Assembly (NCBI GenBank): GCA_947650365.1
Contig: OX393551.1
Span: forward strand, 93,346,697 to 93,410,696
Length of the DNA stretch: 64,000 nt
Direction of reading: 5' to 3'
DNA from: Chamaelirium japonicum
Lineage: Eukaryota > Streptophyta > Magnoliopsida > Liliales > Melanthiaceae
The notes beneath the pieces were generated by a model. That model saw only the letters and a list, made by a program, of their open reading frames with translations, was not told the DNA's origin and ran no database searches. How positions within the stretch are numbered: the first letter of the stretch is position 1; each line of letters opens with the position of its first letter. This document shows positions 1 to 54,664 of the stretch, one piece after another. The position numbers were made by a program, and so were the translations under genes.

Positions 1-629
1 TCTTCTCCTATAGATTAGGGTTTCTTATAGATTGCTTATGCCCTAAGTAAGCTTACCCTTTAAATAATATACGACCCCTTTAGGGTGGGACACGTTTGAT
101 GACTTTTCCTTTCTCCTATCTCGTAACACGTTATCAACATGAACATATGGAGCTTAGCCGACCAGTCGTATGAAAACAGAGAGAGAAACGAAGACAGAGA
201 AGAGAAAATAAGAGACAAGAGAACGAAGAGATAAACCAAGATAGAAGAGAAAAGAAGTCCTTCTCCAATCCATTAGCCACGGGTATAGGTGTAAAGTAAG
301 AAGGAATCTAAATTCCAAAACTCCACTTCTTAATAATATAATTAAATATCTCTATTCTTTTCTCTCTTTACCCATGGATTAGGGTTTTCCATAGATTGCT
401 TATGCCCTAAGTAAGCTTACCCTATAAATAATATACTACCCCTTTAGGGTAGGGCACGTTTGACGGCTTTCACTTTCTCCCATCTTACAATACGTTATCA
501 ATACAAACATATCAAGCCCAACCAACCAGTCACAAAAAAACAAAGAGAGAAATGAAGACAGAAGAGAGAAGAGAACAAAGAAATAAACAAAGAAAAATAA
601 GAGAAGAAGTCTTGCTCCAGTCTATTGGC
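1..629 (+). repeat. LTR/leader-like module array, block 1
   Basis: There is no gene here. The block holds two plus-oriented copies of a module with a fixed order: a telo-box-like TTAGGGTTT, a TATA-like CCCTATAAATAAT (about 52-80 and 418-440), a conserved TAGGGTGGGGCACGTTTGA region, CACGTTATCA, an ATG reading MSSPADQ-like residues in the better copies, a long purine-rich tract, and a tail ending in GGAATCTAAATTCC. The order resembles an LTR promoter followed by the start of an internal region. No matching polymerase is linked to it, so the family is unassigned. Confidence 0.7.
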
Positions 630-1507
630 TGTGGGTGCAAATTTTGGCCGAAAGCCTCACAAATAGTGGGACCCACCAGCCCTGCCTATGGGGTCCACAA
701 AGACGATAACAGGACCCACTAGCCCTACCTGTAGAATCCATAAAGATGATAGCGGGACCCACCAGCCCTGCCTGTGGGGTCCATCGAGGTAACGATAGGA
801 CCCACGGGCCCTGCCTGTGGGGTCCACCGAGATGACGGTAGGACCCACCAGTCCTGCCTGAGGGGTCTTCCGAGATGACAGCGGGACCCATCAACCCCGC
901 CAGGATTCAGGCGACAGCTGCAAAAACTGCCCTTTACTCTGGTTTCCCTTCAAGAAAAATCTATAAATAGAAGACCCAACGAGTGTACTAGAAAAAATCG
1001 GATCTCTGATTTCTGAATCAGACTTTCAAAAAACCTATAGCTCTTATATCCTAACTCTTCGATCTTTTTTTCAAAGAGATCAGTGATACTCGGCCTGTCG
1101 AAGTCACTTTGAGAAAAGTGTTAGTGAATTTAGGTTGCACCTTATAGCACGGAGATGTAGGTTTCGGCTGAACTCTAATATCATATCTTGTGTCAATCTC
1201 CTCTCTCTTCTTATTCATAGTTTGAATTCAAAGGCACTAACAAGCAACATCCGAATCAACAATCTAGACTAAAGTTTGATCAACCCTTCGACTCGACTTG
1301 ATTGACTGGTTGTGTGGAGTCTTCGGGTCTGATAGGTCCCGCTGTCGTCTTTGTGGACCCCACAAGCAGGTCTGGTGGGTCCCGTTGTCATCTTTGTAGA
1401 TCCTACATGCAGTACTAGTAGGTCCCGCTGTTGTATTTGTGGACCCCACAGGCAGGGCTGGTGGGTCCCACTATTTATGAGGCTTTCAGCCAAAATTTAA
1501 TCCCATA
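630..1507 (+). mobile_element. Solo-LTR-like element C, left copy
   Basis: This is an 878-bp insertion flanked by a TTGGC duplication (625-629 and 1508-1512) that interrupts one module. Its core is clearly related to the LTRs of elements A and B: it begins TGTGGGTGCAAATTTTGG, has a TATA-like CTATAAATAG-type site near 970, and shares the U5-side GTGTTAGTGAATT and GCACGGAGA segments. Unlike A and B, the far end is an inverted copy of its own GGGTCCC-type repeat block, so it has inverted repeats of roughly 250-300 bp. No internal coding region is present. An 878-bp mirror copy lies at 50863-51740. About 7% of bases differ in the stretch I compared. Confidence 0.75.
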
Positions 1508-4500
1508 TTGGCCATGGGTGTAGGTGTGAAGTAAGAAGGAATCTAAATTTCAAAACTTTACAAAAAGAAGAGAAGAAGATAGAAGAGAATGGAGAGATAA
1601 ATAAAGAGAGAAAAGAGAAGGAGTCCTACTCCAGTCCATTGACCACTGGTATAGGTGTGAAGTAAGAAGGAATCTAAATTCTAAAAATCCACTTTTGTCT
1701 TCGTTTCTTTCTCCATTTTCTTGCGACTGGTCGGCTGGGCTCGACATGTTCGTGCTGATAATATGTTATAAGATGTGAGAAAGAGAGAGCCGTCAAACGT
1801 GCCCCACCCTAAAGGGGTCGTATATTATTTATAGGGTAAGCTTACTTAGAGCCTAAACAATCTATGAGAAATCCTAATCCATAGGAGAAGAGAAAAGAGA
1901 ACGGAGAAATAAACAAAGAGAGAAGAGAGAAGAAGTCCTGCTCCAGTCCATTGGCCACGGGTATAGGTGTGAAATTAGAAGGAATCTAAATTCCAGTTTT
2001 CAATATTTATTTAACCTATTTAGGGTAGGGAACGTTTGACAACCCTCTCTTTCTTCCATCTCACAATACGTTATTAGCACAAACATATCGAGCCCAACCA
2101 ACCAGTCACAAGAAAACGGAGAGAGAAACGAAGACAGAAAAGAAAGAAGAAGAGAGAAGAGAACGGAGAGATAAACAAGAGATAAGAAGTCCTGCTCCAG
2201 TCCATTAGCCACAGGTATAGATGTGAAGAAGGAATATAAATTCCAAAACTCCATAGAAGAGAGAGAAGAAGAGAGAAGAGAATAGAAAGATAAATAAAGA
2301 GAGAAAAGAGAAGATGTCATGCTCTATTTCATTATCCACTATCAGATTTCTTCCATGGATTAGGATTTCTCATAGATTGCTTCGGCCCTAAGTAAGCTTA
2401 CCTATAAATAACATATGACCCCTTTTGGTTATGGCACATTTGACGGCTCTCTCTTTCTCCCATCTTACAATACATTATCAGTACGAATATATCGAGCACA
2501 GCCGTTAAATAATTCATTTATCTCTCCGTTCTCTTCTCTCTTCTTCTCTCTTCTCACAATACGTTATCAATACAAACATGTCGAGCCCAGTCGACCAGTC
2601 ACAAGAAAACATAGAGAGAAACAAAGACAGAAGAGAAAGAAGACGAGAGAAGATAACAGAGAGAAATGAAGAGAGAAGAGAGAATAAGTCATGTTTAAGT
2701 CCATTCGCCACGGGTTTAGGTGTGAAGTAAGAAGGAATATAAATTTCAAAACTCCACTTTTGTCTTCGTTTCTCTCTCTATTTTCTTTTGACTAGTCGGT
2801 TGGGCTCAATATATTTGTGCTGATAACGTATTGTGAGATAGAAGAAAGAGAGAGCTGTCAAATGTGCCCCACCGAAAAGGGGTCGTAAATTATTTATAGG
2901 GCAAGCTTACTTAGGGCCTAAGCAATCTATGGGAAACCTTAATCCATAGGAGAAGAGAACGAAGAGATTTAATTATATTTTTGAGAATTAGAGTTTTTGA
3001 ATTTAGATTCTTTCTTACTTCACACCTATACTGCTGATAACATATTTTGAGATGGGAAAAGAAGAGAGAAAAGAATGGAGAGATAAACTAAAATAGAAGA
3101 GACAAAAAGTCATGCTCCAGTCCATTGGCCACGGGTATAGATGTGAAGTAAAATAATTAAATTAAAATAACTAATTAATTATTTAATAACTTATTAGAGC
3201 CGACCAGTATTCGTTTTTTATAATCCATGGGTGAAGAGAGAAGAGAATAAAGTGATTTAATTATATTATAGAGAAGTGGAGTTTTGAAATTTAGATTCCT
3301 TCTTACTTCACACATATACCTGTGGCGAATAGACTAGAGCAGGACTTCTTCTTTCTTCTCTCTTCGTTCTCTTCTCACTTCTTCTCTCTCTTCTCTCTTC
3401 ATTTATCTCTTTATTCTCTTTTCTCCTACTCCAGTCTATTCGCCACGGGTATAGGTGTGAAGTAAGAAGGAATCTAAGTTCCAAAAGTCCACTTTTGACT
3501 TTGTTTCTCTTACTATTTTCTTACGACTGGTCGGTTGGCCTCGACATGTTCGTGCTCATAATGTGTTGTGAGATGGGAGAAAGAGAGAAAAGAATAGAGA
3601 GATAAACGAAGAGAGAAGAGAGAAGAGAGAAGAGAGAATAAGTCCTGCTCTAGTCTATTTGTCATGGGTATAGATGTGAAGTAAAAAGAAATCTAAATTT
3701 CAAAACTCCATAGTAGAGAGAGTAGAAGAAAGAAAAGAACGGAAAGATTTAATTATATTATTAAGAAGTGAAATTTTGGAATTTAGATTCCTTCTTATTT
3801 CACACCTATACCCGTGGTGAATAGATTGGAGAAGGACTTCTTCTCTCTTCTCTCGTCTCTCTTTATTTATCTCTCCGTTCTCTTCTCTCTTCTTATAACA
3901 CGTTATCAGCACGAACATGTTGAGCCCAGCCGGCCAGTCATAATAAAATGAAGAGAGATAAATATAGAAGAGAGCGAAGAAAAGAGAAAAGAATAGAAAG
4001 ATAAACAAAGTGAAAAGAGAGAAGATGTCCTACTCTAGTACATTGGCCACGGGTATAGGTGTGAAGTAAGAAGGAATCTAAATTCTAAAACTCCACAGAA
4101 AAGAGCAAAAAAGAGAACGGAGAGAAGAAGTTCTTCTCTTTCTGTTTTCTTATGACTGGTCGGTTGGGATCGACATGCTCATGCTGATAACCTGTTATGA
4201 GAAGAGAAAAGAAGATAAAAGAGAATAGAGAGATAAACAAAGAGAGAAGAGAGAAGAAGTCCTGCTCCAGTCCATTCACCACGGGTATAGGTGTGAAGTA
4301 AGAAGGAATCTAAATTTCAAAACTCCACTTCTCAATAATGTAATTAAATCTCTCCGCTCTCTTTTTTCTTCTCCTATGGATTAGATTTCCAAATATAGAA
4401 GGCAGAAGTAAAGTTTTCAAATATAGATTCCTTCTTACTTCACATCTATACCCGTAGCCTATGGATTGGAGTAGAACTTCTTCTCTCTTTATTTATCTCT

Positions 4501-6560
4501 CTATTCTCTTCTCTCTTTTTCTCTCTTCTATCTTTGTTTCTCTCTCTATTTTCTTACGACTGGTCAGCTGGGCTTGACATGCTCGTGTTATTAACGTATT
4601 GTGAGATAGGAGAAAAAGAAAGCCATCAAACATGCCCCACCCTAAAGGGGTTGTATATTATTTATAGGGTAAGAATAGAAAGAGAAACGAAGATAGAAGA
4701 GAGAAGAGGAGAGAAGAGAATAAAGAGATAAATAAAGAGTAAAGAGAGAAGAAGTCCTTTTATAGTCTATTGGACATTTTGATGGCTCTCTCTCTTTCTC
4801 CCATCTTACAACACATTATCAGCACGAACATGTCGAACCCAATCGATCAGTCATAAAAAACGGAGAGAAATAAATATAGAAGTGAAGATTTGGAATTTAT
4901 ATTCCTTCTTATTTCACACGTATACCTGTGGTAAATAGATTGGAGCAGGACTTCTTCTCTCATCTATCTTCGTTTATATCTTCGTTCTCATCTCTCTTCT
5001 TCTCTCTTCTCACAACACGTTATTAGCATGAATATGTCAAGCCCAGTCGACCTGTTACAAAAAAATAGAGGGAGAAACGAAGGCAAAAGTGGAGTTTTTG
5101 AATTTAGATAACTTCTTGCTTCACACATATACCCATGCCAATGGACTAGAGCAGGTCTTCTTCTCTCTTTTCTTTTCGTTTATCTTTTCGTTCTTTTCTC
5201 ACTTCTTTTCTGTCTTCTATCTTCATTTCTTTCTCCGTTTTCTTGTGACTGGTCGGCCGGGCTCGATATATTCGTGCTGATAACATGTTATGAGATGGGA
5301 GAAAGAGAGAGCCATCAAATATGCCCTACCCTAAAGGGGTCATATATTATTTATAGGGTAATCTTACTTAAGGCCAAAGCAATCTATATGAAACCCTTAT
5401 CCATAGGAGAAGATAGAAGAGAATGGAGAAATTTAATAATATTATTGAGAAGTGGAGTTATGGAATTTAGATTCCTTTTTACTTTACACCTATACTCATG
5501 GCGAATTGACTGGAGCATGACTTCTCTCTTCTCTCTTCATTTATCTCACTATTCTCTTCTCTCTTGTTCTTTCTTTTCTGTGGAGTTTTAGAATTTAGAT
5601 TCCTTCTACTTCACAAGCTTACCCTATAAATAATACGTTATCAGCATGAATATGTCAAGCCCAGCCGACCATGTCGAGTTTAGCCGACCAGTCACATGAA
5701 AATGGAAAGATAAACGAAGATAGAAGAGAGAGAAGAAGAGAGAAGTAAACGAAGAAATAAACAAAGAGAGAAAAGAGAAGATGTCCTGCTTCAGTCCATT
5801 GGCCACGGGTATATGTGTGAAGTAAGAATGAATCTAAATTCAAAAACTCTTTAAAAGAGAGAGAAAAGAGAAGAGAACGGAGAGATAAATTTAAATAGAA
5901 GAGAGAAGAAGTCTTGCTTCAGTCTATTAGCCATAGGTCTAGGTCAGAGGTAAGAAGGAATCTAAATTCCAAAACTTCACTTCTGTCTTTGTTTCTCTCT
6001 CTGTTTTTTTACATCTGGTCGGTTGGGCTCGATATATTCGTACTGGTAATGTATTGTGAGATGGAAGAAAGAGGGAGCCATCAAATGTTCCCCATATTAA
6101 AGGGTTCATATAAATATTGAGAAGTGGAGTTTTGGAATTTAGATTTCTTCTTACTTTACACCTATACTCGTGGCCAATAGATTGAAATATGACTTTTTCT
6201 CTCTTCTCTGTTCGTTTATCTCTCTGTTCTTTTCTCTCTTCTTCTGTCTTCTTTTCTCTCTTCGTTTTCTTGTGACTGGTCGACAGGGCTTAATATATTC
6301 GTGCTGATAACGTATTATGAGATAGGAGAAAGAGAGATCCGTCAAACATGTCCCACCCTAATGGGGTCGTATAAATATTAAGAAGTAGAGTTTTAGAATT
6401 TAGATTCCTTCTTACTTTATACCTATACCCGTGGTGAATGGACTGGAGCATGACTTCTTCTCTCTTCTCTTTTCTTTTATCTCTCCGTTCTCTTTTTCCT
6501 TCTTCTCTCTCTTTTGTCTTCGTTTCTCTCTTTCTTTTCTTGTGCCTGGTCGGTTGGGCT
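1508..6560. repeat. LTR/leader-like module array, block 2
   Basis: There is no gene here. Modules occur in both orientations. Minus-oriented TATA-like sites (TATTATTTATAGGGTAAG type) lie near 1811, 2886, 4662 and 5342. Plus-oriented ones lie near 2395 and 5608. Purine-rich and pyrimidine-rich tracts alternate as the orientation switches. Short open frames rich in Ser, Leu and Phe (pyrimidine strand) or Glu, Arg and Lys (purine strand) are by-products of these tracts. A short AT-rich piece lies at about 3150-3220. Confidence 0.7.
6556..6560 (+). repeat. Target-site duplication of element A (left)
   Basis: GGGCT occurs immediately before the LTR that starts TGTGGGGG and again at 31662-31666 after the LTR that ends CCCACA. 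The unduplicated target survives in the palindrome's other arm at 45068-45072, read as AGCCC. Confidence 0.93.
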
Positions 6561-7238
6561 TGTGGGGGAAAATCTTCGTGCCGACCCGAAGACTTCGCCG
6601 CACCAGTCAATTGAAGGTTTGAGTCGTAGATCGTTGATCGATCTGTTGATTGGAGTTGTCGCTTTCGATATGCAAAGAGAGGCGTAATCAGAGAGAGTTG
6701 ACACGAGAGGTGATCTCGGAGTTCAGCTGAAGCCTACGTCTCCGTGCTATAGGGAGCAACCCGAATTCACTAACACTTGTATCAAAGTGATCTCGACAGG
6801 CCGAGTATCACTGAAACCCCTTTGATCTCTTCAAAGACAAGAAGAAGATCAAAGAGAGGAAGTGAAGGGATGGAAACTGAAATCCGGAGCTCTGGTTTCT
6901 GAAAATCAAATCTCAGAAATGGAAATCGGATTTCGGATCCTTTTACATTCGTAGGTTCTGCTATTTATAGAATTCCCGGGGAGGAATTCCGAGGTAAATG
7001 GCGGTTTATGCTGTTGTATCTGGGGATCCTCTAGGTAAAGCTGGTGGGTCCCGCTGCCGTCTCCTGGGGGATTCCACAAGCTCTTGGGCCCACCAGGCAG
7101 GGCCGGTGGGTCCCGCGATACTCTTCGTGGGCCCACCAGGCGGGGCTGGTGGGTCTCGCTGTAGTCTTCGGGGCCCCCACCAGGCAGGGCCGGTGGGTCC
7201 CGCTGTTTGCAGACTTCTTGCCAAAATTTGCACCCACA
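6561..7238 (-). repeat. 3' LTR of element A
   Basis: The LTR is 678 bp, bounded by TG and CA, and pairs with 30985-31661 (677 bp). Going along the minus strand it starts TGTGGGTGCAAATTTTGG, then has a GC-rich block of GGGTCCC and GGGCCCACC units (about 7038-7205), the TATA-like CTATAAATAG (6961-6970 on the plus map), and a U5 end in CCCCCACA. Many short open frames of Gly, Pro, Arg and Trp in this region come from the GC-rich repeats and are not genes. Confidence 0.92.
6961..6970 (-). promoter_or_regulatory. TATA-like site in the 3' LTR of A
   Basis: CTATAAATAG on the minus strand lies in the same relative place in all four Tat LTRs here (6961, 15029, 26950, 31385). It fits the U3 promoter of the element. 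Position and conservation are seen; activity is inferred. Confidence 0.65.
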
Positions 7239-7255
7239 GTTACCCCCTCCAAGTT
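7239..7255 (-). other. Polypurine tract of element A
   Basis: The minus strand reads AACTTGGAGGGGGTAAC directly against the 3' LTR, the expected place for the plus-strand primer of an LTR retrotransposon. The same 17 bases lie beside the 3' LTR of B at 15596-15612. Confidence 0.8.
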
Positions 7256-7355: not shown

Positions 7356-8343
7356 GACTGATCGGTCAATTTTGACTGATCGGTCAAAGTTGACCGATCG
7401 GTTGATTTTGACCGATCGGTCAAGTTTGACCGATCGGTTAAAATCAACCGGTCGAGGTTGGAGTGATCGGGCAAAAAACCAAGTTTTTTGCCCGATCCAG
7501 TAGAAAATCGACCGATCGGTTGATTTTGACCGATCGGTCAAGTTTGACTGATCGGTTAAAATCAACCGGTCGAGGTTGGAGTGATCGGACAAAAAACCAA
7601 GTTTTTTGCCCGATCCAGTAGAAAATCGATCGATCGGTTGATTTCGACCGATCGGTCAAGTTTGACCGATCGGTAAAAATCAACCGGTCGAGGTTGGAGT
7701 GATCGGGGAAAAAACCAAGTTTTTTGCCCGATCTAGTAGAAAATCGACCGATCGGTTGATTTCGCCGATCGGTCATGTTTGACCGATCGGTTAAAATCAA
7801 CCGGTCAAGGTTGGAGTGATCGGGTAAAAAGCCAAGTTTTTTGCCCAATCTAATAGAAAATCGAACGATCGGTTGATTTCGACTGATCGGTCATGTTTGA
7901 CTGATCGGTTAAAATCAACCGGTCAACGTTGGAGTGATCGGGTAAAAAACCAAGTTTTTTCCTTGATCTAGTAGAAAATCGACCGATCGGTTGATTTCGA
8001 CCGATCGGTCATGTTTGACCGATCGGTTAAAATTAACCGGTCAAGGTTGGAGTGATCGGGCAAAAAACCAAGTTTTTTGCCCGATCCAGTAGAAAATCGA
8101 CCGATCGGTTGATTTTGACCGATCGGTCATGTTTGACCGATCGGTTAAAATCAACCGGTCAAGGTTGGACTGATCGGGCAAAAAACCAAGTTTTTTGCCC
8201 GATCCAGTAGAAAATCGACCGATCGGTTGATTTCGACCGATCGGTCATGTTTGATCGATCGGTTAAAATTAACCGATCAAGGTTGGACTGATCGGGCAAA
8301 AAACCAAGTTTTTTGCCCGATCTAGTAGAAAATCGACCGATGG
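7356..8343. repeat. About 118-bp palindrome-rich tandem array in element A
   Basis: There are about eight copies with a period near 118 bp, for example AAAATCGACCGATCGGTTG-like starts near 7504, 7621, 7739, 7857, 7975, 8093, 8211 and 8329. Each unit holds one or more GACCGATCGGTC perfect palindromes, often extended to 14-16 bases, an AACCGGT site, and a hairpin-prone GGCAAAAAACC...TTTTTTGCC segment. The TTGAC cores match the W-box bound by WRKY proteins. The array lies between the 3' LTR and the antisense gene, directly upstream of that gene's promoter. Apparent proteins rich in Asp-Arg-Ser here are repeat translations. Confidence 0.9.
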
Positions 8344-8540: not shown

Positions 8541-8627
8541 CCACGTGTCCTTGCAAAAACACGCGATTTGACATAGTGATGACCGTGTCCTTTCGATTTG
8601 CGCGCCAATTCCCCCAGGGTATATAAG
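8541..8627 (+). promoter_or_regulatory. Promoter of the antisense gene in A: G-box and TATA box
   Basis: CCACGTGT (8541-8548) has a G-box CACGTG core, and TATATAAG (8620-8627) lies about 105 bp before the ATG at 8730. The same pair, at similar spacing, is found in B (17028-17035 and 17108-17115). Conservation between the two copies supports a real promoter on the plus strand, opposite to the retrotransposon transcript. Confidence 0.68.
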
Positions 8628-8729
8628 CTACTCTGGCTGCCATTTTCGCCTCATGCTTTTAGAAATTTTTTCGAAGTCCATAATCTTTGCTCTTGGTTTT
8701 TGTTCTTTGTTTCCTTCCGATCGGTTGAA

Positions 8730-11487
8730 ATGGCGTCTTCTGGTAGCGTGAAGAAGGTGAACGTGGTCCCCTCGAAGAGGAAGGGGAAGGAGATTGTTGA
8801 AGTCTCATCCGTCCCGAAGGGCCGTGGCAAAGGCAAGGCTGAGCTTATCGAGCTTGGTCAATTGGGCAAGAGGCACCAGGGAGTGGGGTTTGCTTCTGTA
8901 CCATCCCGTCCAGAGCATATCCCCAAGGCAAAATTCGTTCTTTGCCCGCTGATGCCTCTGTCGGTGGAACCAGAGTATGGGTACAATACCGGTGGCAGAC
9001 TTACCAACTTGAAGAGGGAGAAATTGCAGAAGCTACTAGCTTGCTTCACAGAGGGGAAGATCCGACCATCGCTTCCGGGAGTTTTATCTGCTTTCGTGAT
9101 CGATAAGCGGACAATCTTTACTACATATGCGAGCAAGGAGCAAGTGATGGGGACGATAGTTACTATTGGCCAGTTGAACTGCGAACTACGCCTCCCACTG
9201 CCTCCGTTCGCCACAAGGCTTCTGAATACCTCAGGTCTTTGTCCTGGGCAGATCTCGGGGAACGCATGGAGAATCATCTATGCTTTCTGCCGCGTGGAGT
9301 CCGACTTCCAAGATGAGCTGAGGGAGTGTCACTCCAGCATTCCTGAGGGTGAGGTTGCAAGGATAGAGTTAGGCTATTTCTTCTACCACTACATGTGGGC
9401 TTCGAGGAAGGATAGCCCATTCTTCAATCTGACTGGTATCTCAGCCCTTCGGCCGATCGTCGACACCGTCGGCTCTGACAAGCTCTATACCGACTGGCCG
9501 ATATCGGTCTCCGGTGCATGGACACCTCTCTCAATACCTGAGACTCCTCGTTATAAGGTGCACGAAGAGATAGATATATACTGTGCAGGATGAGCCCTCG
9601 CATAGCCTTCAGAGCGGGTAGGGGCTATTGACAATCTCTTCCTAGAGCTGACATGCGGGACTCGATCATGGAAGCAGTTCTCGAACTGCCCCGTTCGACA
9701 TGGCAATGCCAACCTCCTTCACCGACTGCGGGCCCGCTATAAAGACAACGAAGTCTTGTATTCCGATTATGAGGAGGATCCTCAATCAGGCAAGATCGTT
9801 AGAAGAATTCGGGCCGAGAAGAAGGCGCACGGAGCCCGGCGCAGCTTACCCTCAGAGGAGAAGCTGGTGATCAATCGCAAGGGCCAGGCCAAGAAGAGGA
9901 AAATCTATGTCGAGGAGGAGAAGAAAAAAGAAGAAGAGAAAGAGAAGGAAGGTGGAGGTGGAGATGAAGATGAAGAGGATGGAGGTGACGATGATGAGGA
10001 CAGTGACGATGATGATGACGATGATGGTAGCAATGGCAGCAATGAAGGAGGAGAAAATGGAGATGGAGCAAATGGGGGTGGAGAGGAAGTATCGCCCATT
10101 CCCACTGGTGGTGGTGGGGACGAACTTCCTCCCACCCCCACTGGTGGTGGTGAGGGTGAGCTTCCTCCCACCCCCACTGGAGGTGGTGAAGAAGATTCAC
10201 AACCCATCCCTATAGACGAGGCTAAGGCCCGTCGCATGGAGGGAGTGATGGATGCAGAGGATGACGGCCAGAAGGTGCAACCCCTGTATCGTTTTGAAGA
10301 GTTGGAGAAGCCCTACTACAAGCGGAGGTTTAGAGGTTAAACAACCTCCTCCCCCATCGCTCTCTTTGGCGGAGGAGATGGCAGCCCTTGTGGCTGGGCT
10401 CGAGCAGCAACAAGATGAAGGAGAGATCTCACCTCCTCGAGGTGTTCTTTCTCTTGCACACATGGAGAGAGAGAGAGCCGCATGGGTGATGGGACTCCCC
10501 AACCTCAACCAGAGCCAACCCCTCCCAAAGAGAAGTCTACCCCCAAGGGTAAGAGCACTGATCGTGGGAAGGGGAAAGTATCTCAAGCTGATGCCACAGG
10601 TATCCTTACTAACTTCTACTTATAATTGTACTGCCTTTGAAGTTTGAAAATATTCTAACTCTTTGAATTTTTGCTTGTCTTGCAGAGACTCCTGCTGGCA
10701 CAACTTTGCTTTTGAAGGATTTGGGTGAGGTTGATATCAACCACCCAACTCCGGTGATCCGGAAACTCTGTAACCTCCCGGGGGCCTCGATCGAAGAAGC
10801 CTTCCATAGGCTTGAAGTGGTGGTAAGTGCATCAGCCTGACTTGACTTTTGAGTTGAATCTTCTGAAATATTCTAACACATCTTGTTTGTTCACAGAACT
10901 CAGCGGTTCTGAAGTTTGGCACAAAGCTTTTCAAGAAGGTCAGAGAGCGAGAGGCTTCATCTGAAGTCTCTCGCCTGACGGTTGAATTGGAAGCTGCCCA
11001 AGAAGAGAAGGATAAGCTGAGGGAGCTTCTTTCTTCTAAGAAGGAGGCTTTGAAGGCCAAGATCGAGGCCCTTCACAAGGAGAAATTGGAGAGCAAGGGC
11101 TGGCACGATGGTTATGTAGCTCGGGGTCACGATCTTGAAGAATTGAAAAACCGGTTCTTCAGGATTGAGACTCTAGCTCATGACCGATCGGTGGAGCTAA
11201 CGGAGCTGAAGAGCCAAGTTGCTGATAGGGAAGCTGCTCTCGCTGCTAGAGAAGCTGCTTTTGATACTAAGGAGGCTTCTTTTATTGCCAAGGAGGAGGC
11301 TCTCAGGAAGGAGTTGGAGCATACCCGTTCTGAATGTCAGAGCTTCAGGGAAACTGCAGAGAAGGCGGTGGAAGCACTCAGGGTCCATGCCAGCAGTGTC
11401 CGATCTTCTAAGGCTTCGGCTGCGAGCAAAGCTCATGGTGGATCTGAAGGAGAGAGGTCACGTGCCCCAAGCGTAGCCAAACCCTGA
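8730..11487 (+). pseudogene. Antisense passenger gene of element A (broken copy)
   Basis: It lies on the strand opposite gag-pol and runs tail-to-tail with pol. ATG 8730 is chosen because the same MASxGSxKK start is used in B. The N-terminus is basic (SKRKGKEIVE and KGRGKGKAELIEL), followed by a globular region with LPPFATRLLNTSGLCPG, NAWRIIYAF and YFFYHYMWASRKDSPFF, an acidic Glu/Asp run, Pro-rich PPTPTGGG repeats, and a C-terminal coiled coil. Two GT-AG introns (10600-10685 and 10823-10896) match those of B, and the middle exon is 137 bp in both. The pattern resembles the plant retrotransposon antisense proteins grouped as Transposase_28-like, but I cannot confirm the family. The copy is broken in a few places. 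Confidence 0.75.
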
Positions 11488-26549: not shown

Positions 26550-26552
26550 AAC

Positions 26553-43500: not shown

Positions 43501-44025
43501 TCCTATGGATTAGGGTTTCCTATAGATTACTTAGGCCCTAAGTAAGATTTCCCTATAGATAATATATTACCCCTTTAGGGTGGGACACATTTGATGACTC
43601 TCTTATTCTCCTATCTCACAATACGTCATCAGCACGAACATATCGTGCCCAGCCGACCAATCACAAGCAAACCAAAAGAGAGAAACGAAGACTGAAGAGA
43701 GAGAAGAAGAGAGAAGAAAACGATGAGATAAACGAAGTGAGAAGAAGTCCTACTCAAGTCCATTGGCCACGGGTATAGGTGTGAAGAAAGAAGGAATCTA
43801 AATTCCGAAACTCTACTTCTATCGTTGTTTCACTCTCTATTTTCTTGTGACTGGTCGGCTGGGCTCGACATGTTCAAGCTGATAACATGTTATGAGAAGA
43901 GAGAAGAAGATAGAAGAGAATGGAGAGATAAACAAAGAGAGAAGAGAGAAGAAGTCATGCTCCAGACCATTCGCCACGGGGATAGGTGTGAAGTAAGAAG
44001 GAATCTATATTCCAAAACTCCACTT
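40506..44025. repeat. LTR/leader-like module array, block 4 (right arm)
   Basis: Mirrored copies of blocks 35546-36190 and 32675-35384, including the short AT-rich flank at 41146-41320. Plus TATA-like sites lie near 41380, 42220 and 43550; a minus site lies near 43270. No gene is seen. Confidence 0.72.
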
Positions 44026-44863
44026 CTCAATAGTATCATCTCAACGTTATTATGATTATCATACTAATATTACTATAATATTTTTAATTAAATTAATTAT
44101 TTATTTAATTATTAAATTATTTAAATAATTTAATAATTTAAATAATTTAATAATTAACTTTTTAGTAAAATAAATAATTTATTTAATTAAATTTATTATT
44201 CTATTTATTTATTTACTATTATATTATTAAATAAATAAATTAGGAAATTATTTAAATTATTAAATAAATAAATAATAATTTAATTATATAATTAATTTAT
44301 TAATTCATTTTATTAGTTATTTATTTAATTATTATTTTATTTTTTATTAATTAAATAATTAGATAAATATTTAAATATATAAAAATTATTTACTAAAGAA
44401 TATATTAAATAGATTATTTACTTAAACAAGTAAATAATTTAATTATTAAATTATTTTACAGTTTAAATAAAAAATAATTAAAATATATTATGAAATATTA
44501 ATTAAAATAATTAAAGAACTTATTATTTAATTAAGTAATAAAATAAAAAAGTAATGCAATAACTATTTCCTTATTATTTAAATAATTAGTTAATTATTTT
44601 AATATATAAATAATAAAATATTTTTTTAAATAACTTAATAAATTTTTTAAATAATTAAATAAATATTTATTTATTTTAATATTTACATAATATATAAATT
44701 ATTTAAATAATTAATTTTTTAATTATATAGATAGTTAAATATTTATTTAATTATTTATCTATTTAATTATTTAATTTATTAAATAATAGGAAGTAAGAAG
44801 GAAGATGAGGTATACCCGAATTTTTTGCTTTAAAAATAATATATATTTTTCTTTAAAAAACTT
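44026..44863. repeat. AT-rich tract, right copy
   Basis: This is the inverted copy of 31840-32674, bounded by CTCAATAGTATCATCTCAAC and by CCCGAATTTTTTGC. No gene is seen. Confidence 0.85.
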
Positions 44864-47800
44864 GAAAACATTACACTTGTTATGTGATCGTTCGATTGGA
44901 TGGCTGTCCATCATCGAATCTCTCCCATGGATTAGGGTATCTTATAGATTGCTTAGGCCCTAAGTAAGTTTACCCTATAAATAATATATGACCCTTTTAA
45001 GGTGTGGCACGTTTGACGGCTCTCTCTTTCTCCCATCTCGCAATACATTATCAGCACGAACATGTCGAGCCCAGTCGACCAGGCACAAGAAAAGAGAGAG
45101 AAACGAAGACTAAAGAAAGAGAAGAAGGAAGAAAAGAATGGAGAGATAAAAGAAACGAGAAGAGAGAAAAAGCCATGCTTTAGTCCATTCACCTGGGGTA
45201 TAGGTATAAAGTAAGAAGGAATCTAAATTCCAAAACTCTACTTCTTAATATTTATACGACCCTATTAGGGTGGGGCATATTTGACGGATTTCTCTTTCTC
45301 CTATCTCATAACACGTTATCAGCACGAACATATTAAGCCCAGCCGACCAGTCACAAGAAAACGATGAAAGAAACGAAGACAGAAGAAGAGAAAAAATAAC
45401 AGAGAGATAAACGAACAGAAAAGAGAGAAAAAGTCTTATTCCAAAATATTGGCCACGAGTATAGGCGTAAAGTAAGAAGGAATCTAAATTCCAAAACTCC
45501 ACTTCTCAATATTTATACGAACCCTTTAATGTGGGGAACATTTGACGGCTCTCTCTTTCTTCCATCTCACAATACATTATCAGTACGAATATATCAAGCC
45601 TAACCGACCAGATGTAAGAAAAAAGAGAGAAAAACAAAGACAGAAGTAGAGTTTTGGAATTTAGATTCCTTCTTACCTCTGACCTATACCCATGGCTAAT
45701 AGATTGGAGCAAGACTTCTTCTCTCTTCTCTTTTTATTTATCTCTCTATTCTCTTCTCTCTTCTCTCTCTTCTATGGAGTTTTTGAATTTAGATTCATTC
45801 TTACTTCACACCTATACCCATGGCCAATGGACTGGGGCAGGACATCTTCTCTCTTCTCTCTTTGTTTGTCTCTTTGTTTACTTCTCTCTTCTTCTCTCTC
45901 GTCTATATTCGTTTATCTTTCCATTTCTTATGACTGGTCGGCTAGGCTCGACATGGTCAACTGGGCTTGACATATTCATACTGATAACATATTATTTATA
46001 GGGTAAGCTTGTGAAGTAAAAAGGAATCTAAATTCTAAAACTCCATAGAAGAGAAAGAACAAGAGAGAAGAGAACGGTGAGATAAATGAAGAGAGAAGAG
46101 AGAAGAAAGAAGAACTCATGCTCCAGTCAATTCGCCATGAGTATAGGTGTAAAGTAAGAAGGAATCTAAATTCTATAACTCCACTTCTCTAGAATATTAT
46201 TAAATCTCTCCATTCTCTTCTCTCTTCTCCTATGGATAAGGGTTTCACATAGATTGCTTTGGCCTTAAGTAAGCTTACCCTATAAATAATATATGACCCC
46301 TTTAGGGTGGGGACTGTTTGATGGCTCTCTCTTTCTCCCATCTCACAACATGTTATCATCATGAATATGTCGAGCCCGGCCGACCAGTCACAAGAAAACG
46401 GAGAAAGAAATAAAGATAGAAGAGAGAGAAGAAGTGAGAAAAGAACGAAAAGATAAACATAAGAGGAGAGAAGAAGACCTACTCTAGTCCATTAACATGG
46501 GTATATGTATGAAGTAAGAAGTTATCTAAATTCCAAAACTCTACTTTTGCCTTCGTTTCTTCCTCTATTTTCTTGTGACAGGTCGACTGGGCTCGACATA
46601 TTCATGCTGATAATGTGTTATAAGAAGAGAGAAGAAAAAAGATGAGAACAAAGATATAAATGAAGATAGAAGAGAGAAGAAGTCCTATTCCAATCTATTC
46701 GCCACAGGTATAGGTGTGAAATAAGAAGGAATCTAAATTCCAAATCTTCACTTATATATTTGTTTCTCTCCATTTTTTATGACTGATCGATTGGGTTCGA
46801 CATGTTCGTACTGATAATGTGTTGTGATATGGGAGAAAGAGAGTGAGCCATCAAACATGTCCAATGGACTGGAGCAGGACTTCTTCTCTTTACCCTCTTT
46901 ATTTATCTCTTTATTCTCTTCTCTCCTCTTCTCTCTTCTATCTTTGTTTCTCTTTTCATTCTTACCCTATAAATAATATACAACCTCTTTAGGGTGGGGC
47001 ACATTTGATGGCTCTCTTTTTCTCCTATCTTACAATACGTTAACAATACGAGCATGTCAAGCCCAGCCGACCAGTCGTAAGAAAACAGAGAGAGAAACAA
47101 AAACAAAAGAGAGAAAAAGAGAGAAGAGAATAGAGAGATAAATAAAGAGAGAAGAAGTTCTGCTCCAATCAATAGTCTATGGATATAGGTGTGAAGTAAG
47201 AAGGAATCTATATTTGAAAACTTTACTTCTACCTTCATTTCTCTCTCTGTTTTTTGGTGACCGGTCGGCTGGGCTCGACATGTTCGTGCTGATAACGTGT
47301 TGTGAGATGGGAGAAAGAAAGAGCCATCAAATGCACCCTACCCTAAAAGGGTCGTAAATGATTTATAGTGTAAGCTTACTTAGGGCTTAAGCAATCTATA
47401 GGAAATCTAATCCATAGGAGAAAAAAAAGAGAACAGAGAGATTTAATTACATTATTGAGAAGTGGAGTTTTAGAATTTAGATTCCTTCTTACTTCACACC
47501 TATACCCGTGGTGAATGGACTGGAGCAGGACTTCTTCTCTCTTCTCTCTTTGTTTATCTCTCTATTCCCTTTTCTTTTATTTTCTCTTCTCACAACAGGT
47601 TATCAGCATGAGCATGTTGATCCCAACCGACCAGTCATAAGAAAACAGAGAGAGAACTTCTTCTCTCCATTCTCTTCTTCGCTCTCTTCTGTGGAGTTTA
47701 AGAATTTAGATTCCTTCTTTCTTCACACCTATACCCATGGCCAATGGACTGGAGCAGTACTTCTTCTCTTTTTTCATTTTGTTTATCTTTCTATTCTCTT

Positions 47801-50800
47801 ATCTCTTCTTCGCTCTCTTCTGTCTTTATTTCTCTTTTTGTTTTATTATGACTGGTCGGCTGGGCTCGACATGTTCGTGCTGATAACGTGTTATAAGAAG
47901 AAAGAAGAAGAGAGAAGATAACAGAGAGATAAATAAAGAGAAAAGAGAGAAGAGAGAAAAGAGAAGAAGTCCTTCTCCAATCTATTCACCACGGGTATAG
48001 GTGTGAAGTAAGAAGGAATCTAAATTCCAAAATTTCACTTCTTAATAATATAATTAAATCTCTCCGTTCTTTTCTCTCTTCTTCTCTCTCTACTATGGAG
48101 TTTTGAAATTTAGATTTCTTTTTACTTCACACCTATACCCATGGCGAATAGACTAGAGCAGGACTTCTTCTCTTTTCTCTCTTCTCTCTTTGTTTATCTC
48201 TCTGTTCTTTTCTCTCTTTCTCCTATCTCACAACACATTATTAGCACGAACATATCGAAGCCAGCCGACCAGTCGTAAGAAAATAGTGAGATAAACAAAG
48301 TCAAAAGTGGAGTTTTGGAACTTAGATTCCTTCTTACTTTACACCTATACCCATGGCGAATGGACTAGAGCAGGAGAAAAGAGAACAAAGAGATAAAAGA
48401 AGAAAGAAGAGAGAGAAGAAGAGAGAAGAGAACGAAGAGATAAACGAAGAGAGAAGAGAAAAGAAGTCCTGCTCCAGTCTATTCGCCACAGGTATATGCG
48501 TGAAGTAAGAAGGAATCTAAATTTCAAAACTCCACTTCTCTATAATATAATTAAATCTCTTTATTCTCTTCTCTCTTCACCCATGGATTATAAAAAAGGA
48601 ATACTGGTTGGCTCTAATTAGTTATTAAATAATTAAATAGTTATTTTAATTTAATTATTTTACTTCATATCTATAACCTTGGCCAATGGACTGGAGCATG
48701 AATTTTTGTCTCTTCTCTCTTAGTTTATCTCTCCATTCTTTTCTCTCTTCTTCTCCCATCTCACAACATGTTATTAGCAGTATAGGTATGAAGTAAGAAA
48801 TAATCTAAATTCTAAAACTCTAATACACATAAATATAATTAAATCTCTTCGTTCTCTTGTCCTATGGATTAAGGTTTCCCATAGATTGCTTAGGCCCTAA
48901 GTAAGCTTACCCTATAAATAATTTACGACCCCTTTTCGGTGGGGCACGTTTGACAGCTCTCTCTTTCTTCTATCTCATAATACATTATCAGCACAAATAG
49001 GTTGAGCCCAACCGACCAGTCAAAAAAAAATGGAGAGAGAAACGAAGACAAAAGTGGAGTTTTGAAATTTATATTCCTTCTTACTTCACACCTAAACCCA
49101 TGGCAAATGGACTCAAACATGACTTCTTCTCTCTTCTCTCTTTATTTCTCTCTGTTATCTTCTCTCTTCTTCTCTCTCTTCTATCTTCGTTTCTCTCTAT
49201 GTTTTCTTGTAACTGGTCGGCTGGGCTCGACAAGTTCGTGTTGATAACGTATTGTGAGAAGAGAGAAGAGAACGGAGAGATAAATGAATTATTTAATGGT
49301 TGTGCTCGATATATTCGTACTGATAACGTATTATAAGATGGGAGAAAGAGAGAGCCGTCAAATGTGCCACAACCTAAAGGGGTCGTATATTATTTATAGG
49401 GTAAGCTTACTTAGGGCCTAAGCAATCTATGAGAAATCCTAATCCATGGAAGAAATCCGACAGTTGATAATGACATAGAGCATAACTTCTTCTCTCTTCT
49501 CTCTTTATTTATCTTTTTGTTCTCTTCTCTCTTTTTCTCTCTTCTATGGAGTTTTGGAATTTATATTCCTTCTTACTTCACATCTATACTCGTGGCTAAT
49601 GGACTAGAGCATAACTTCTTCTCCCTTGTTTATCTCTCTGTTCTCTTCTCTCTTATTCCCTCTTTTCTGTCTTCGTTTCTCTCTCCGTTTTCTTGTGACT
49701 AGTTGGTTGGGCTTGACATGTTCGTGCTGATAACGTATTATGAGATGGAAGAAAGAGAAGGCCGTCAAACGTGCCCTACCCTAAATAGGTCAAATAAATA
49801 TTAAAAACTAGAGTTTTGGAATTTAGATTCCTTCTTACTTCACACCTATACCCGTGATCAATGCAATGGAGCAGGTCTTCTCTCTTTATTTATCTCTCCG
49901 TTCTCTTCTCTCTTCTTCTCTCTCTTCTGTCTTATTTTCCCTCTCTATTTTTTTAGGAATAGTCGGTTGGTCTCAACATGTTCATGCTGATAACATATTG
50001 TGAGAAGAGAGAAGAAGAGAGAAGAGAATAAAGAGATAAACGAAGAGAGAAGAGAGAAAGTCCTATTCCAATCCATTCACCACGGATATAGGTATAAAGT
50101 AAAAAGGAATCTAAATTCCAAAACTCCATTTCTCAATAGTATAATTAAATCTCTCCGTTCTCTTTTTGATCACTCTTATGGATTAGTATTTCCTATAGAT
50201 TGCTTAGGCCCTAAGTAAGCTTACCTTATAAATAATATACGACTCTTTTAGGGTGGGGCACATTTGATGGTTTTTTCTTTCTCCCATCTCACAACACGTT
50301 ATCAGCACGAACATGTCAAGCCCAGTCGACCAGTCGCAAGAAAATAGAGAAAGAAACGAAGAAAGAAGTGGAGTTTTGGAATTTAGATTCCTTCTAACTT
50401 CACACCTATACCCGTGGTCAATAGACTGGAGCAGGATTTCTTCTCTCTTCTCTCTTCGTTTATCTCTTCGTCCTCTTCTCTCTTCTCCCATGGATTAGGA
50501 TTTCTCATAGATTGTTTAGGCTCTAAGTAAGCTTACCCTACAAATAATATGCGACCCCTTTAGGGTGGGGCACGTTTGACGGCTCTCTCTTTCTTATATC
50601 TTATAACATATTATCAACACGAACATATCGAGCCCAGCCGACCAGTCGCAAGAAAACGGAGAGAGAAACAAAGACAAAAGTAGAGTTTTGGAATTTAGAT
50701 TCCTTCTTACTTCTCACCTATACCCGTGGATAATGGGCTGGAGTAGGACTCCTTCTCATCTCTCTTTATTTATCTCTTTATTCTCTTCTATCTTCTTCTC

Positions 50801-50862
50801 TCTTTTTCGTGGAGTATTGAAATTTAGATTGCTTCTTACTTCACACCTATACCCGTGGCCAA
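44864..50862. repeat. LTR/leader-like module array, block 5 (right arm)
   Basis: This is the mirror of 1508-6560, about 740 bp longer. Plus TATA-like sites lie near 44970, 46275, 46965, 48910, 50225 and 50535; minus sites lie near 45985, 47353 and 49386. Short AT-rich pieces lie near 48610-48660. Apparent open frames follow the purine and pyrimidine tracts and look like by-products. Confidence 0.72.
45068..45072 (-). other. Empty target site of element A
   Basis: AGCCC here is the reverse complement of A's GGGCT duplication, present once. Flanks on both sides match those of element A (TTTTCTTGTGCCTGGTCG on one side, CGACATGTTCGTGCTGATAA on the other, both read on the minus strand). It records the state of this sequence before A arrived in the other arm. 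Confidence 0.88.
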
Positions 50863-51740
50863 TGTGGGTGTAAATTTTGGCCGGAAGCCTCACAAATAGC
50901 AGGACCCACCAGCCCTGCCTGTGGGATCCACAAAGACGACAGCGGGACCCACTATCACTGCCTGTGGGATCTACAAAGATGATAGCGGGACCCACCAGCC
51001 CTGCTTGTGGGGTCCACAAAGATGACAGCGGGACCCACCAGACCAGAAGACTCCACACAACCAGTCAATCTAGTCGAGTTGAAGGGCTGATCGAACTTTA
51101 GTCTAGATTGTTGATTCGGATGTTGCTTTTTAGTGCCTTTGAATTTAAACTTTAAATAAGAAGAGAGAGGAGATTGACACAAGATATGATATTAGAGTTC
51201 AGCCAAAACCTATGTCTCCGTGCTATAAGGTGCAACCTAAATTCACTGACACTTTTCTCAAAGTGACCTTGACAGGCCGAGTGTCACTGATCTCTTTGAA
51301 AAGAAGATCAAAGGGTTAGGATGTGAGAGCTCTAGGTTTTTTGAAAGTCTGATTCAGAAATCAGAGATCCAATTTTTTCTAGTACACTCGTTGGGTCTGC
51401 TATTTATAGATTTTTCTTGAAAGGAAACCAGAGTAAAGGGCAATTTTTGCAGCTGTCACCTGAATCCCGACGGGGTTGATGGGTCTCGACGTCATCTCGG
51501 TAGACCCCACAGGCAGGACTGGTGGGTCGCACCATCGCCTCGGTGGACCCCACAGGCAGGGCAGGTGGGTCCTATCGTTACCTCGATGGACCCTACAGAT
51601 AGGGCTGGTGGGTCCCGCTATCATCTTTGCAGATCCTATAGGCAGGGCTAGTGGGTCCCGTTGTCGTCTTTGTAGACCCCACAGGCAGGGCTAGTGGGTC
51701 CCACTATTTGTGAGGCTTTCGGCCAAAATTTGCACCCACA
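50863..51740 (-). mobile_element. Solo-LTR-like element C, right copy
   Basis: This is an 878-bp inverted counterpart of 630-1507, flanked by GCCAA (50858-50862 and 51741-51745), the reverse complement of TTGGC. It has the same internal organisation, with GGGTCCC-type repeats at both ends in inverted orientation, and no coding region. Because both copies keep their duplications, C was in place before the inverted duplication. Confidence 0.78.
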
Positions 51741-54664
51741 GCCAATGGATTGGAGCAAGAATTCTTCTCTTATCTTTCTTTGTTTATCTCTTCATTCTCT
51801 TCACTCTTCTGTCTTCATTTCTCTCTTTGTTTTCTTGTGACTGGTCGGTTGGGCTTGACATGTTCGTATTGATAACGTATTATAAGATGGGAGAAAATGA
51901 GAGACATCAAACGTGCCCTACCCTAAAGGGGTAGTATATTATTTATAGGGTAAGCTTACTTAGGGCCTAAGCAATCTATGGGAAACCCTAATCCATGGGT
52001 GAAGAGAGAAAAGAATGGAGAGATTTAATTATATTATTAAGAAGTGGAGTTTTGGAATTTAGATTCCTTCTTACTTCACACCTATACCCATGGCTAATGG
52101 ATTGGAGAAGGACTTCTTTTCTTTTTTATCTTTGTTTATCTTTTCGTTCTCTTCTCTCTTATTTTCTCTTCTCTGTATTCGTTTCTCTCTTCGTTTTCAT
52201 ACGACTGGTCGGTTGAGCTCCATATGTTCGCGCTGATAACGTATTATGAGATAGGAGAAAGGGAAAGTCATCAAACGTGTCCCACCCTAAAGGGGTCATA
52301 TATTATTTATAGGGTAAGCTTACTTAGGGCATAAGCAATCTATAAGAAACCCTAATCTATAGGAGAAGAGAGAAGAGAATGGGGAGATTTAATTAAATTA
52401 TTTAAAAGTAGAGTTTTGGAATTTAGATTCCTTCTTACTTCACACCTATACCCATGGCGAATAGACTAGAGCATGGCTTCTTCTCTTTTCTCTTTTTGTT
52501 TATCTCTCTGTTGTCTTCTCTCTTCTTACAACACGTTATCAGCACGAACATGTCGAACCCAGCCGACCAGTCGCAAGAAAACAGAGAGAGAAACAAAGTC
52601 TAAAGAGAGAGAAGAAAAGAGAAGAGAACGAAGTAAGAACAGAGAGATAAATGAAGAGAGAAGAAGCCCTGCTCTAGTCCATTGACCACAGGTATAAGTG
52701 TGAAGTAAGAAGGAATCTAAATTCCAAAACTCTACTTCTTAATATTTATACGACCCCTGTTTGGTAGGGCACGTTTAATAACTCTATTTCTTTCATCTCA
52801 CAATACGTTATCAGCACGAACATGTCAAGCCCACCAGGCCAGTCGCAAGAAAACGAAGACAGAAGCATGACTTCTCTACTTCTCTATTTATTTATCTTTT
52901 CGTTCTCTTCTTTCTTCTTCTCTCTCTTCTGTGGAGTTTTAGAATTTAGATTCTTTCTTACTTCATACCTATACCCTTGGCCAATGGACTCGAGCATGAC
53001 TTATTCTCTCTTTTATTTCCGTTTATCTCTCTGTTCTCTTCTTTTTTTTCTTTTCTCTCTTCTGTCTTCGTGTTGATAACGTGTTTTGAGATGAGAGAAA
53101 GGGAGAGCCGTCAAACATGCCGCACCCTAAAGGGGTCGTATAAATATTGAGAAGTGGAGTTTTGGAATTTAGATTACTTCTTACTCCACAGCTATACCCG
53201 TGGCCAATGCACTGGAGCAGAACTTCTTCTCTCTTCTCTCTTCGTTTATCTCTTTATTCTCTTTTCACTTCTCCCTCTTCTGTCTTTATTTTTCTCTTTG
53301 TTTTCTTATGACTGGTCAGCTGGGCTCGATATATTCATACTGATAATGTGTTGTGAGAAGAGAGAATAAGAGAGAAGAGAATAGAGAGATAAATGAAGAG
53401 ATAAGAGAGAAGAAATCCTGCTCCATGTTATTTAACTAATATATTTTCATGAAGAAAACGGAGAGGGAAATAAAGACAGAAGAGAGAGAAGAAGTGAGAA
53501 GAGAATGGAAAGATAAACAAAAAGAGAGAAGAGCAAAGAAGTCCTGCTCCAGTCCATTCGCTACAGATATAGGTGTGAAGTAAGAAGGAATCTAAATTAC
53601 TAATCTGCACTTCTTAAAATTTATACGACCCCTTTAGGGTGGGGTATGTTTGACAGCTCTCTCTTTCTTCCATCTCACAACACTTACCCTATAAATAATA
53701 TAAGACCCCTTTAGGATAGGGCACGTTAAACGGCTCTCTCTTTCTCCCATCTCACAAAATGTTATCAGCATGAATATATCGAGCCCAGTCGACCAGTAAT
53801 AAGAAAACGGAGAGAGAAATAAAGACAAAAGAGAGATAAGAAAAGAGAGAGAATGGAGAGATAAACGAAAAGAGAAGAGCGAAGAAGTCTTGCTCTAGTC
53901 CATTGGCCATGGGTATAGGTGTGAAGTAAGAAAGAATCTATATTCCAAAACTCCATTTCTGTCTTCGTTTCTCTCTCTATTTTCTTGTGATTGGTCAGCT
54001 GTGCTCGACATGTTCTTACTGATAATGTGTTGGGAAATGGGAGAAAGAGAGAGACATCAAATGTGCCCCACCCTAAAGGGGTTATATAAATATTTAGAAG
54101 TAGAGTTTTAGAATTTAGATTCCTTCTTACTTCACTTCTACACCCATGGCCAATGGACCGAAGCAGGACTTCATCTCTCTTCTCTCTTCGTTTATCTCTC
54201 CGTTCTTTTATCTCTTCATTTATTTCTCCATTCTCTTCGCCCTTCTTCTGTCTTCTCTCTTCGTTTATCTCTTCGTTCTCTTCTCTTTTATTTTCTTTCT
54301 TCTATGTTTGTTTCCCTCTCCGTTTTCTTGTGACTGGTCGGCTGGGCTCGATATGTTTATGCTGATAACATATTTTGAGATAGGAGAAAGAGAGAGCCAT
54401 CAAACATGCCCCACCCTAAAAAATGTCGTATATTATTTATAGGGTAAACTAACTTAGGGCCTAAGTAATCTATGGGAAAGAGAAACGAAGACAGAACATA
54501 AAAGAAAATAGAAGAAAACAGAGAGAGAAACGTAGATAGAAGAGAAAAAAGAAGAAATAAGAGAACAGAGAGATAAATAAAGAGAGAAGAAGTCCTGCTC
54601 CAATCAATTCTCCATGGGTATAGGTGTGAAGTAAGAAGGAATATAAATTCCAAAACTCCACTTC
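51741..54664. repeat. LTR/leader-like module array, block 6
   Basis: 51741-52370 mirrors 1-629. The rest has no partner inside the window. Minus TATA-like sites lie near 51925, 52300 and 54430; a plus site lies near 53688. No gene is seen. Confidence 0.7.

Follow-up and report, generated by a model that had tools for sequence, protein, structure and literature searches.

A giant palindrome dispersed through distal repeat blocks of Chamaelirium japonicum as a probable ancient fold-back duplication

Is a giant mirror-image structure in plant repeats genuine, and how could it have arisen? The question is raised by a stretch of 64,000 nucleotides from Chamaelirium japonicum (assembly GCA_947650365.1, contig OX393551.1, positions 93,346,697 to 93,410,696 of the forward strand; hereafter the window), described in an initial annotation as a palindrome with arms of at least 13-14 kb folded at about 39.09 kb. 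Coordinates are window positions; negative values lie to the left of the window and values above 64000 to its right. As determined by self-BLAST, the structure is genuine and bigger than first described (Table 1). Its fold centre lies at 39093.5, where it had been placed, within a spacer of 556 bp. The innermost mirror piece (37675-38815 / 39372-40512) matches at 94.3% without gaps and is centred on 39093.5; it is followed outward by pieces at 31659-36179 / 40506-45075 (91.2%) and, within the window, 1-6560 / 45068-52369 (90.4-92.0%). These paired inverted matches bear out the mirrored order of landmarks noted on the two sides of the fold. When the window is compared with itself and its flanks, the anti-diagonal called for at the outset is found, but as several pieces, and its centre moves from ~38.35 to ~25.8 kb because a 25.1-kb gypsy insertion sits in the left arm and splits it. 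The left arm does leave the window, and with the fetched flanks the mirror can be followed to -33434 / 85602, mostly at 90-93%. The right arm measures at least 46 kb, running from 39372 through the end of the window until another gypsy element starts at 85602; the 13-14 kb given for the arms thus stands as a lower bound. In five shuffles of the window, a simple control that permutes 2-mer blocks, the longest inverted matches were 36, 19, 18, 24 and 0 bp.

Table 1. Positions of the palindrome's parts and of sequences inserted in or confined to one arm.
Feature	Position	Strand	Remarks
Left arm, outer part	1-6560	+	Inverted match to 45068-52369, 90-92%; extends left to at least -33434
Ty3/gypsy insertion in left arm, 25.1 kb	6561-31661		LTRs 6561-7239 and 30985-31661, 96.6%
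Second gypsy element inside the first	14632-27475	-	LTRs 97.5%; TSD AAGGT
Left arm, inner part	31662-38815	+	Inverted match to 39372-45075
1.5 kb confined to left arm	36180-37674	+	Self-BLAST; no counterpart in right arm of the window's subfamily
Spacer (fold loop)	38816-39371	+	Colinear with left arm
Template of junction insertion	39248-39282	+	35 bp
Templated 35-bp insertion	39341-39375	+	33 of 35 bases match template today
Right arm (inverted copy)	39372-64000	-	Extends beyond window to at least 85602
Right-arm segment of ~315 bp	45976-46290		Absent from copies C47 and C33:841

The insertion that splits the left arm is flanked by the TSD GGGCT (6556-6560 and 31662-31666) and is absent from the same point in the three other copies of the palindrome compared (C47, C33:841 and C43); it entered the left arm later than the palindrome formed. 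The element nested within it carries reverse transcriptase, RNase H and integrase domains on the minus strand, with protease matches near the cut-off. A profile scan covered six of the ten window ORFs of at least 200 aa, all within the gypsy insertion: three contain gypsy domains, the protease matches of the second protein being at or below the cut-off, one has a weak gypsy-type Transposase_28 match and two have no match. The only genes found in the window are those of retrotransposons; a tRNA scan gave no hits and an Rfam scan nothing at gathering threshold. At its inner end (~36.9-38.8 kb) the left arm is itself a decayed Ty3/gypsy gag-pol fragment (Retrotrans_gag match at 37496-37690, E=1.2e-11) running on into the spacer, which, from its translation as read and without a Pfam hit, appears to be part of a gypsy reverse transcriptase. 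The 1.5-kb interval confined to the left arm measures, by the spacing of arm pieces, 0 bp in the right arms of the window, C47 and C33:841, and is kept in those of other subfamilies (1482-1507 bp in C41, C7:80.85, C10:58.87, C12 and C2:110.26).

Seven chromosomes and a number of unplaced contigs carry the fold, at no fewer than 37 places and in both orientations; this number, counted by hand and then recounted, is a lower bound taken from the 40 candidates scored among 665. A 36-bp junction pattern with up to three mismatches has 30 hits genome-wide, all at one of the 37 fold places; the reversed control pattern has none. The palindrome forms a dispersed family situated in extensive distal blocks, which are built from a short repeated module, a putative LTR derivative given its primer-site-like motif. 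A 21-mer of the module occurs on both strands alike (2366 and 2418 exact copies). Its 4784 genome-wide copies, set against 34 in 220 kb, put the blocks at ~31 Mb, a rough estimate, as the 21-mer is half as dense on C1 and is absent from 20 kb of C43. Four markers keep a constant order and similar spacing over ~1 Mb at C3-left, C12-right and on contigs C14 and C36. The copies on C1 and C10 and three of the four on C2 sit 11-20 Mb from the assembly's ends, and the term 'subtelomeric' is therefore not apt for all of them.

How the fold formed can be approached through its junction. The 35-bp insertion repeats a template located 93 bp upstream, and its last 4 bp, AGAT, are a microhomology with the inverted arm. 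Among the 26 fold-bearing copies read, including that of the window, the whole junction is intact in 22; two more lack the sequence that separates the 35-bp direct repeats but retain the join to the right arm, which is seen in 24 copies altogether, and two have lost the centre. Two unfolded relatives (C11:67.13 and C8:76.95 Mb) pass straight through arm and spacer and are colinear, at 88%, as far as spacer position 523; left arm and spacer therefore represent the old order. Two marks of a fold-back duplication are found here: the single-copy spacer is colinear with one arm, and the templated insertion and short microhomology stand where the spacer meets the inverted arm.

We consider the palindrome to be, probably, a fossil fold-back inverted duplication that was amplified with the distal repeat blocks. 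The common break point suggests a past event in which, within the relic of an old transposable element, a DNA strand folded back and served as its own template. A chromosome break or replication-fork failure inside the decayed Ty3/gypsy remnant would have left a growing end that re-copied the 35 bp from 93 bp upstream, then annealed through AGAT to the opposite strand roughly half a kilobase behind it, from where copying ran in the reverse direction for at least 46 kb; in the resulting palindrome the 556-bp spacer would form the single-copy loop. We infer that these copying steps were of the fold-back, MMBIR or polymerase-theta-like joining kind, and that both arms derive from one segment. Amplification would have followed, in which the palindrome and the sequence beside it multiplied within the large distal blocks; the most likely route is ectopic exchange between chromosomes or break-induced copying from one to another. 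Since then the arms have diverged, and several copies now lack some of their centre or some of an arm.

The arms are far from identical, and the view that the event is not recent holds. The initial estimate of 3-8% divergence came near the measured values of 5.7-9.6% raw and a K2P distance of 0.080 over 19.8 kb. Left and right arms are ~0.08 apart in all four copies tested (K2P 0.075-0.083), the same arm differs between copies by 0.031-0.045, and the two cross-copy left-right pairs computed gave 0.080 and 0.087. There was no clear sign of arm-to-arm gene conversion in 21 one-kilobase intervals of the four copies; the intervals at 49372 and 59372 contain mis-paired modules (distances 0.16-0.21) and were kept in the totals. 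In none of the four are the arms near-identical or homogenised within a copy in the manner of an ampliconic palindrome. In a tree of 51 arms, left-arm subfamilies reappear among right arms; LEFT requires three changes and RIGHT four, and starred branches force at least two each. Because the deep nodes are short, some without support, and both arm classes need several changes, the case for a single fold rests mainly on the common junction.

A serious rival is the head-to-head joining of two copies of a large unit, tandem or dispersed, that existed beforehand and had already diverged, in which case the 8% would partly predate the fold. It has to be weighed because arm-like sequence without a fold is common and some of it is as close to an arm as its partner, or closer. 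Among the matches listed for window 4600-6500, 32 of 40 full-length places have no fold nearby, mostly at 93%, whereas the right arm of the window itself matches at 91.4%; for 50377-52369 this applies to 13 of 40 listed matches, nine at 96% and four at 92-93%, compared with 92% to the left arm. Moreover, a left-arm-like segment repeats every ~135-210 kb on C2-left and C4-right, and the block carries the module in both orientations. However, in the inner 1.1 kb the left-right distance within a copy (0.063; 23 copies) resembles that of the same arm between subfamilies (left 0.059, 195 pairs; right 0.067, 211 pairs), which leaves only a short interval between the split of the arms and amplification, and the junction consists of a templated insertion and 4-bp microhomology, not of a crossover within shared repeats. 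We regard the joining of older paralogues as unlikely.

The many locations, on seven chromosomes and contigs and in both orientations, might also be expected of a giant DNA transposon that was bounded by very long terminal inverted repeats and transposed as a whole. This is very improbable, as sequence of the -58 kb flank, outside the mirror as verified, recurs at 95% at eight other places, on the same contig as a fold and 21-91 kb from it, and the six ORFs scanned, all within the gypsy insertion, include no cut-and-paste transposase. The concern that two haplotypes were joined head-on during assembly draws on the difficulty of assembling palindromes in repeats, on the many unplaced contigs and on contig C157, which matches the left arm of the window at 98-99% and gave no junction in genome searches for the fold and the 36-bp pattern; judged from the assembled sequence it is nevertheless very unlikely, since the same junction bearing a templated insertion and microhomology recurs at all these places, including separate contigs, the arms differ by ~8% in four of four copies compared with 0.4-0.6% between the putative alleles C4_889 and C33_841, and the gypsy insertion with its TSD is in just one arm.

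It is doubtful that the fold-back copying we favour was a recurrent engine of distal-block growth and not a one-off. At two places on C2 there is a further head-to-head fold close to the outer end of the arm sequence, its spacers measuring ~116 bp, and neighbouring palindromes alternate in orientation among the three at 109-111 Mb on C2 and the two on C10, as expected from repeated fold-back or breakage-fusion-bridge steps. The lack of alternation on C7 (+ + + -) and C4-left (- - + +) counts against a recurrent process.

In a literature search of limited reach we found no report of giant palindromes amplified as a family in the distal blocks of plant chromosomes. The subtelomeric heterochromatin of rye reportedly consists of blocks of co-amplified tandem repeats and transposons, and the blocks described here are likewise distal and enlarged by repeat amplification. 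The readable junction allows the fold to be dated relative to its copies, and makes both the decay of a palindrome, as its arms diverge and its centre or one arm is lost, and the passage of distal blocks between chromosomes directly measurable.

Large duplications of the fold-back kind are familiar chiefly as newly arisen lesions, for example the human cases of Hermetz et al. (2014; PMC3907307), whereas here one such event has apparently been retained and amplified. In the human cases the single-copy spacer, of 766-70,466 bp, is continuous with the non-inverted copy, inverted microhomology of 2-8 bp is present at 13 junctions, and some junctions have insertions, partly copied from nearby. The C. 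japonicum palindrome shares the continuity of the spacer with the non-inverted arm, the microhomology, here of 4 bp, and the nearby-templated insertion, but its event is old, is represented at 37 or more places and has a spacer of 556 bp. Cassandra TRIM elements (PMC7215508) form long tandem arrays in plants, with short units that are non-coding and LTR-derived; the present blocks are also short-unit plant arrays, with a putative LTR origin suggested by the primer-site-like motif, but their module is equally represented on both strands. The palindromes of the willow W chromosome (PMC7023750) carry genes, have four 20-kb arms more than 99% alike and another pair at 96-99%, and show gene conversion in a 3-kb stretch. 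Ours resembles them in being large, in occurring in a plant and in containing LTR retrotransposons; unlike these sex-chromosome palindromes, it has arms ~8% apart that, in the four copies tested, are unhomogenised and without a clear sign of conversion, and the window contains retrotransposon genes only.

The feature in the window is a real, old and multiplied palindrome whose junction is of the fold-back type. Self-comparison bore out the initial annotation of a palindrome folded at about 39.09 kb, placing the mirror centre at 39093.5 between three inverted arm-pair pieces (see table), whose offset is caused by a gypsy insertion in the left arm. With 60 kb of left and 40 kb of right flank added, the mirror persisted from -33434 (negative positions and those beyond 64000 lie in the flanks) to 85602, where another gypsy LTR-type end starts on the right side. 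At a copy at 523 kb on C4 (C-numbers denote chromosomes and contigs of the assembly), the -35 kb sequence occurs once on each side of the fold, at distances of 81 and 88 kb and in opposite orientations, and the arms there may therefore exceed those of the window. A second fold, homologous to window -34350 to -32750 and close to the outer limit of the arm sequence, is seen as two head-to-head inverted pairs (C2:109914519-109917811 and C2:111378507-111381800) whose spacers measure 115 and 116 bp.

Features of the palindrome and of the insertion in its left arm (window positions)
Feature	Position	Orientation	Remarks
Inner arm pair	37675-38815 / 39372-40512	inverted	94.3% (self-comparison)
Next arm pair	31659-36179 / 40506-45075	inverted	91.2% (self-comparison)
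Outer arm pair in window	1-6560 / 45068-52369	inverted	90-92% (self-comparison)
Junction insertion, window copy	39341-39375		35 bp
Template of junction insertion	39248-39282		93 bp upstream of insertion
Outer gypsy insertion	6561-31661		LTRs 96.6% identical, TSD GGGCT
Second gypsy, nested in first	14632-27475		LTRs 97.5%, TSD AAGGT
653-aa open frame	17220-19181	+	inside nested element, antisense to gypsy genes
331-aa frame	8598-9593
118-bp minisatellite	7392-8341 and 15886-16777		about 8 copies each

Searching the assembly (1.52 Gb, 3253 contigs) with arm plus spacer gave at least 84 matches among the best 40 of 665 candidates scored, and the fold was present at no fewer than 37 places (counted by hand, then recounted): 21 on C1, C2, C3, C4, C7, C10 and C12, the other 16 on unplaced contigs. 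Some of the copies on contigs may be allelic to copies on chromosomes, so that distinct loci would number fewer than 37; C33 parallels the left end of C4 in order. A 36-bp junction pattern yielded 30 matches genome-wide at up to three mismatches, and its reversed control none at the same threshold. The copy at C4:2177850 (L035:653) has lost its left arm, the loss ending no more than a few bases from where arm and spacer meet; in C33:1695 and C4:1715 kb the left arm begins only at arm position 359.

We read the junction in 26 copies with the fold (counting that of the window) and in two unfolded relatives. The whole junction is kept in 22 of the 26; in C3:97.30 and C7:82.32 the sequence separating the 35-bp direct repeats is gone, and in C59 and C1:117.81 the centre. 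The junction insertion differs today from its template at 2 of 35 bases, and AGAT is common to template and inverted arm. Both unfolded relatives, at C11:67.13 and C8:76.95 Mb, align with arm and spacer (88%) as far as spacer position 523 and then diverge into other sequence. As they cross from arm into spacer, left arm plus spacer represents the ancestral arrangement, and the right arm is the copy that was inverted. Of six pieces scanned against Pfam, one, the gag part of the decayed gypsy remnant here, matched Retrotrans_gag (1.2e-11), two gave weak matches under the cut-off and three had no match; in our own reading of its translation, the spacer is part of a reverse transcriptase.

In a tree of 51 arms and the two unfolded rows, neither left nor right arms form one clade, and subfamilies seen in left arms reappear in right arms: C3-window/C47/C33/C4/C80/C43/C171, a C2/C3/C4/C12/C14/C36 type with a 73-bp central deletion, and C2/C1/C274/C10/C3/C7. 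The deep nodes are short, some without support. Mean within-copy K2P between left and right arms is 0.063 (23 copies), and between-subfamily distances for the same arm are 0.059 (left) and 0.067 (right). Over 7.6-19.8 kb, the two arms differ by 0.075-0.083 in all four copies compared; comparing one arm across copies gives 0.031-0.045. The right arm of the window's subfamily lacks 1.5 kb opposite 36180-37674; match coordinates show this interval retained (1482-1507 bp) in C41, C7:80.85, C10:58.87, C12 and C2:110.26.

Stretches of 20-40 kb examined in C47, C33:841 and C43 run colinear with the window (94-96%), and the 25-kb gypsy is missing from all three. The outer gypsy, with LTRs 3.4% apart, postdates the fold. 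Within this insertion, the 653-aa frame has a weak Transposase_28 match under the cut-off and is resembled, as judged by eye, by the 331-aa frame; the minisatellite motif is GACCGATCGGTC.

Arm-like sequence without a fold is common and speaks against the fold-back reading. Among the best 40 full-length places scored for each segment, no fold lies within 60 kb at 32 for window 4600-6500 (checked against the 37 folds) and at 13 for 50377-52369. Most of the 32 match the left arm at 93%, slightly above the 91.4% of the right arm, and 9 of the 13 match the right arm at 96% versus 92% for the left. Such segments may each be one half of a palindrome that broke, or units in which no fold ever formed; the latter would place the fold inside an already spreading family, or imply the joining of two older units. 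C157 matches the window's left arm (about -36 kb to 6.5 kb) and C57 its outer left flank, both at 98-99%, and neither the arm-plus-spacer search (best 40 of 665 candidates) nor the 36-bp pattern search found a junction in them. Either may represent another haplotype, or a near-copy whose fold was lost, is missing or was not assembled.

Outside the gypsies, the arms form a mosaic densely packed with a short module. In 164 kb, one 21-bp motif of it was counted 88 times on one strand and 96 times on the other (up to three mismatches); the exact motif occurs genome-wide 2366 and 2418 times. On C1 the exact motif is absent from the first 116.29 Mb and occurs at least 100 times in the next 1.23 Mb (first 100 places listed). 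Central-deletion copies (mean same-arm distance 0.007, six copies) lie at 1.17 Mb on C3, whose nearby end opens with telomere repeats (the one end so seen among the matches listed), at 1.57 Mb on C2, and 1.25 and 1.55 Mb from the right ends of C12 and C4. Across roughly 1 Mb, four markers stand in one order and at similar distances in C3-left, C12-right and contigs C14 and C36. Together with the near-terminal copies, this fits terminal block exchange between chromosomes; the marker order itself could reflect either such exchange or allelic contigs. Not all copies are terminal, since 11-20 Mb separates those on C1 and C10, and three of those on C2, from the ends; the window (C3:93346697-93410696) holds a copy lying 6.7 Mb short of the right end of C3 (100.1 Mb).

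Larger periodicities were also observed. C2-left (0.20-1.22 Mb) and C4-right (93.70-94.69 Mb) carry a common tandem macro-unit: the 4600-6500 segment occurs seven times at each end (93%), its copies about 135-210 kb apart, with an outermost interval of 209.4 kb on either chromosome. One marker recurs in direct orientation every 259.5-259.7 kb on C5, C6, C32 and C77, 258 kb on C44 and 275-286 kb on C7; measured inward from the left ends of C5, C6 and C7, and likewise from the right end of C7, its occurrences fall at about 0.53-0.58 and 0.79-0.86 Mb. Interstitial telomere-type repeats occur on both strands at C1:105031018-105052468.

Fold-back events of this type are already known; what is unusual here is that the product has multiplied into a family within distal repeat blocks of a plant.
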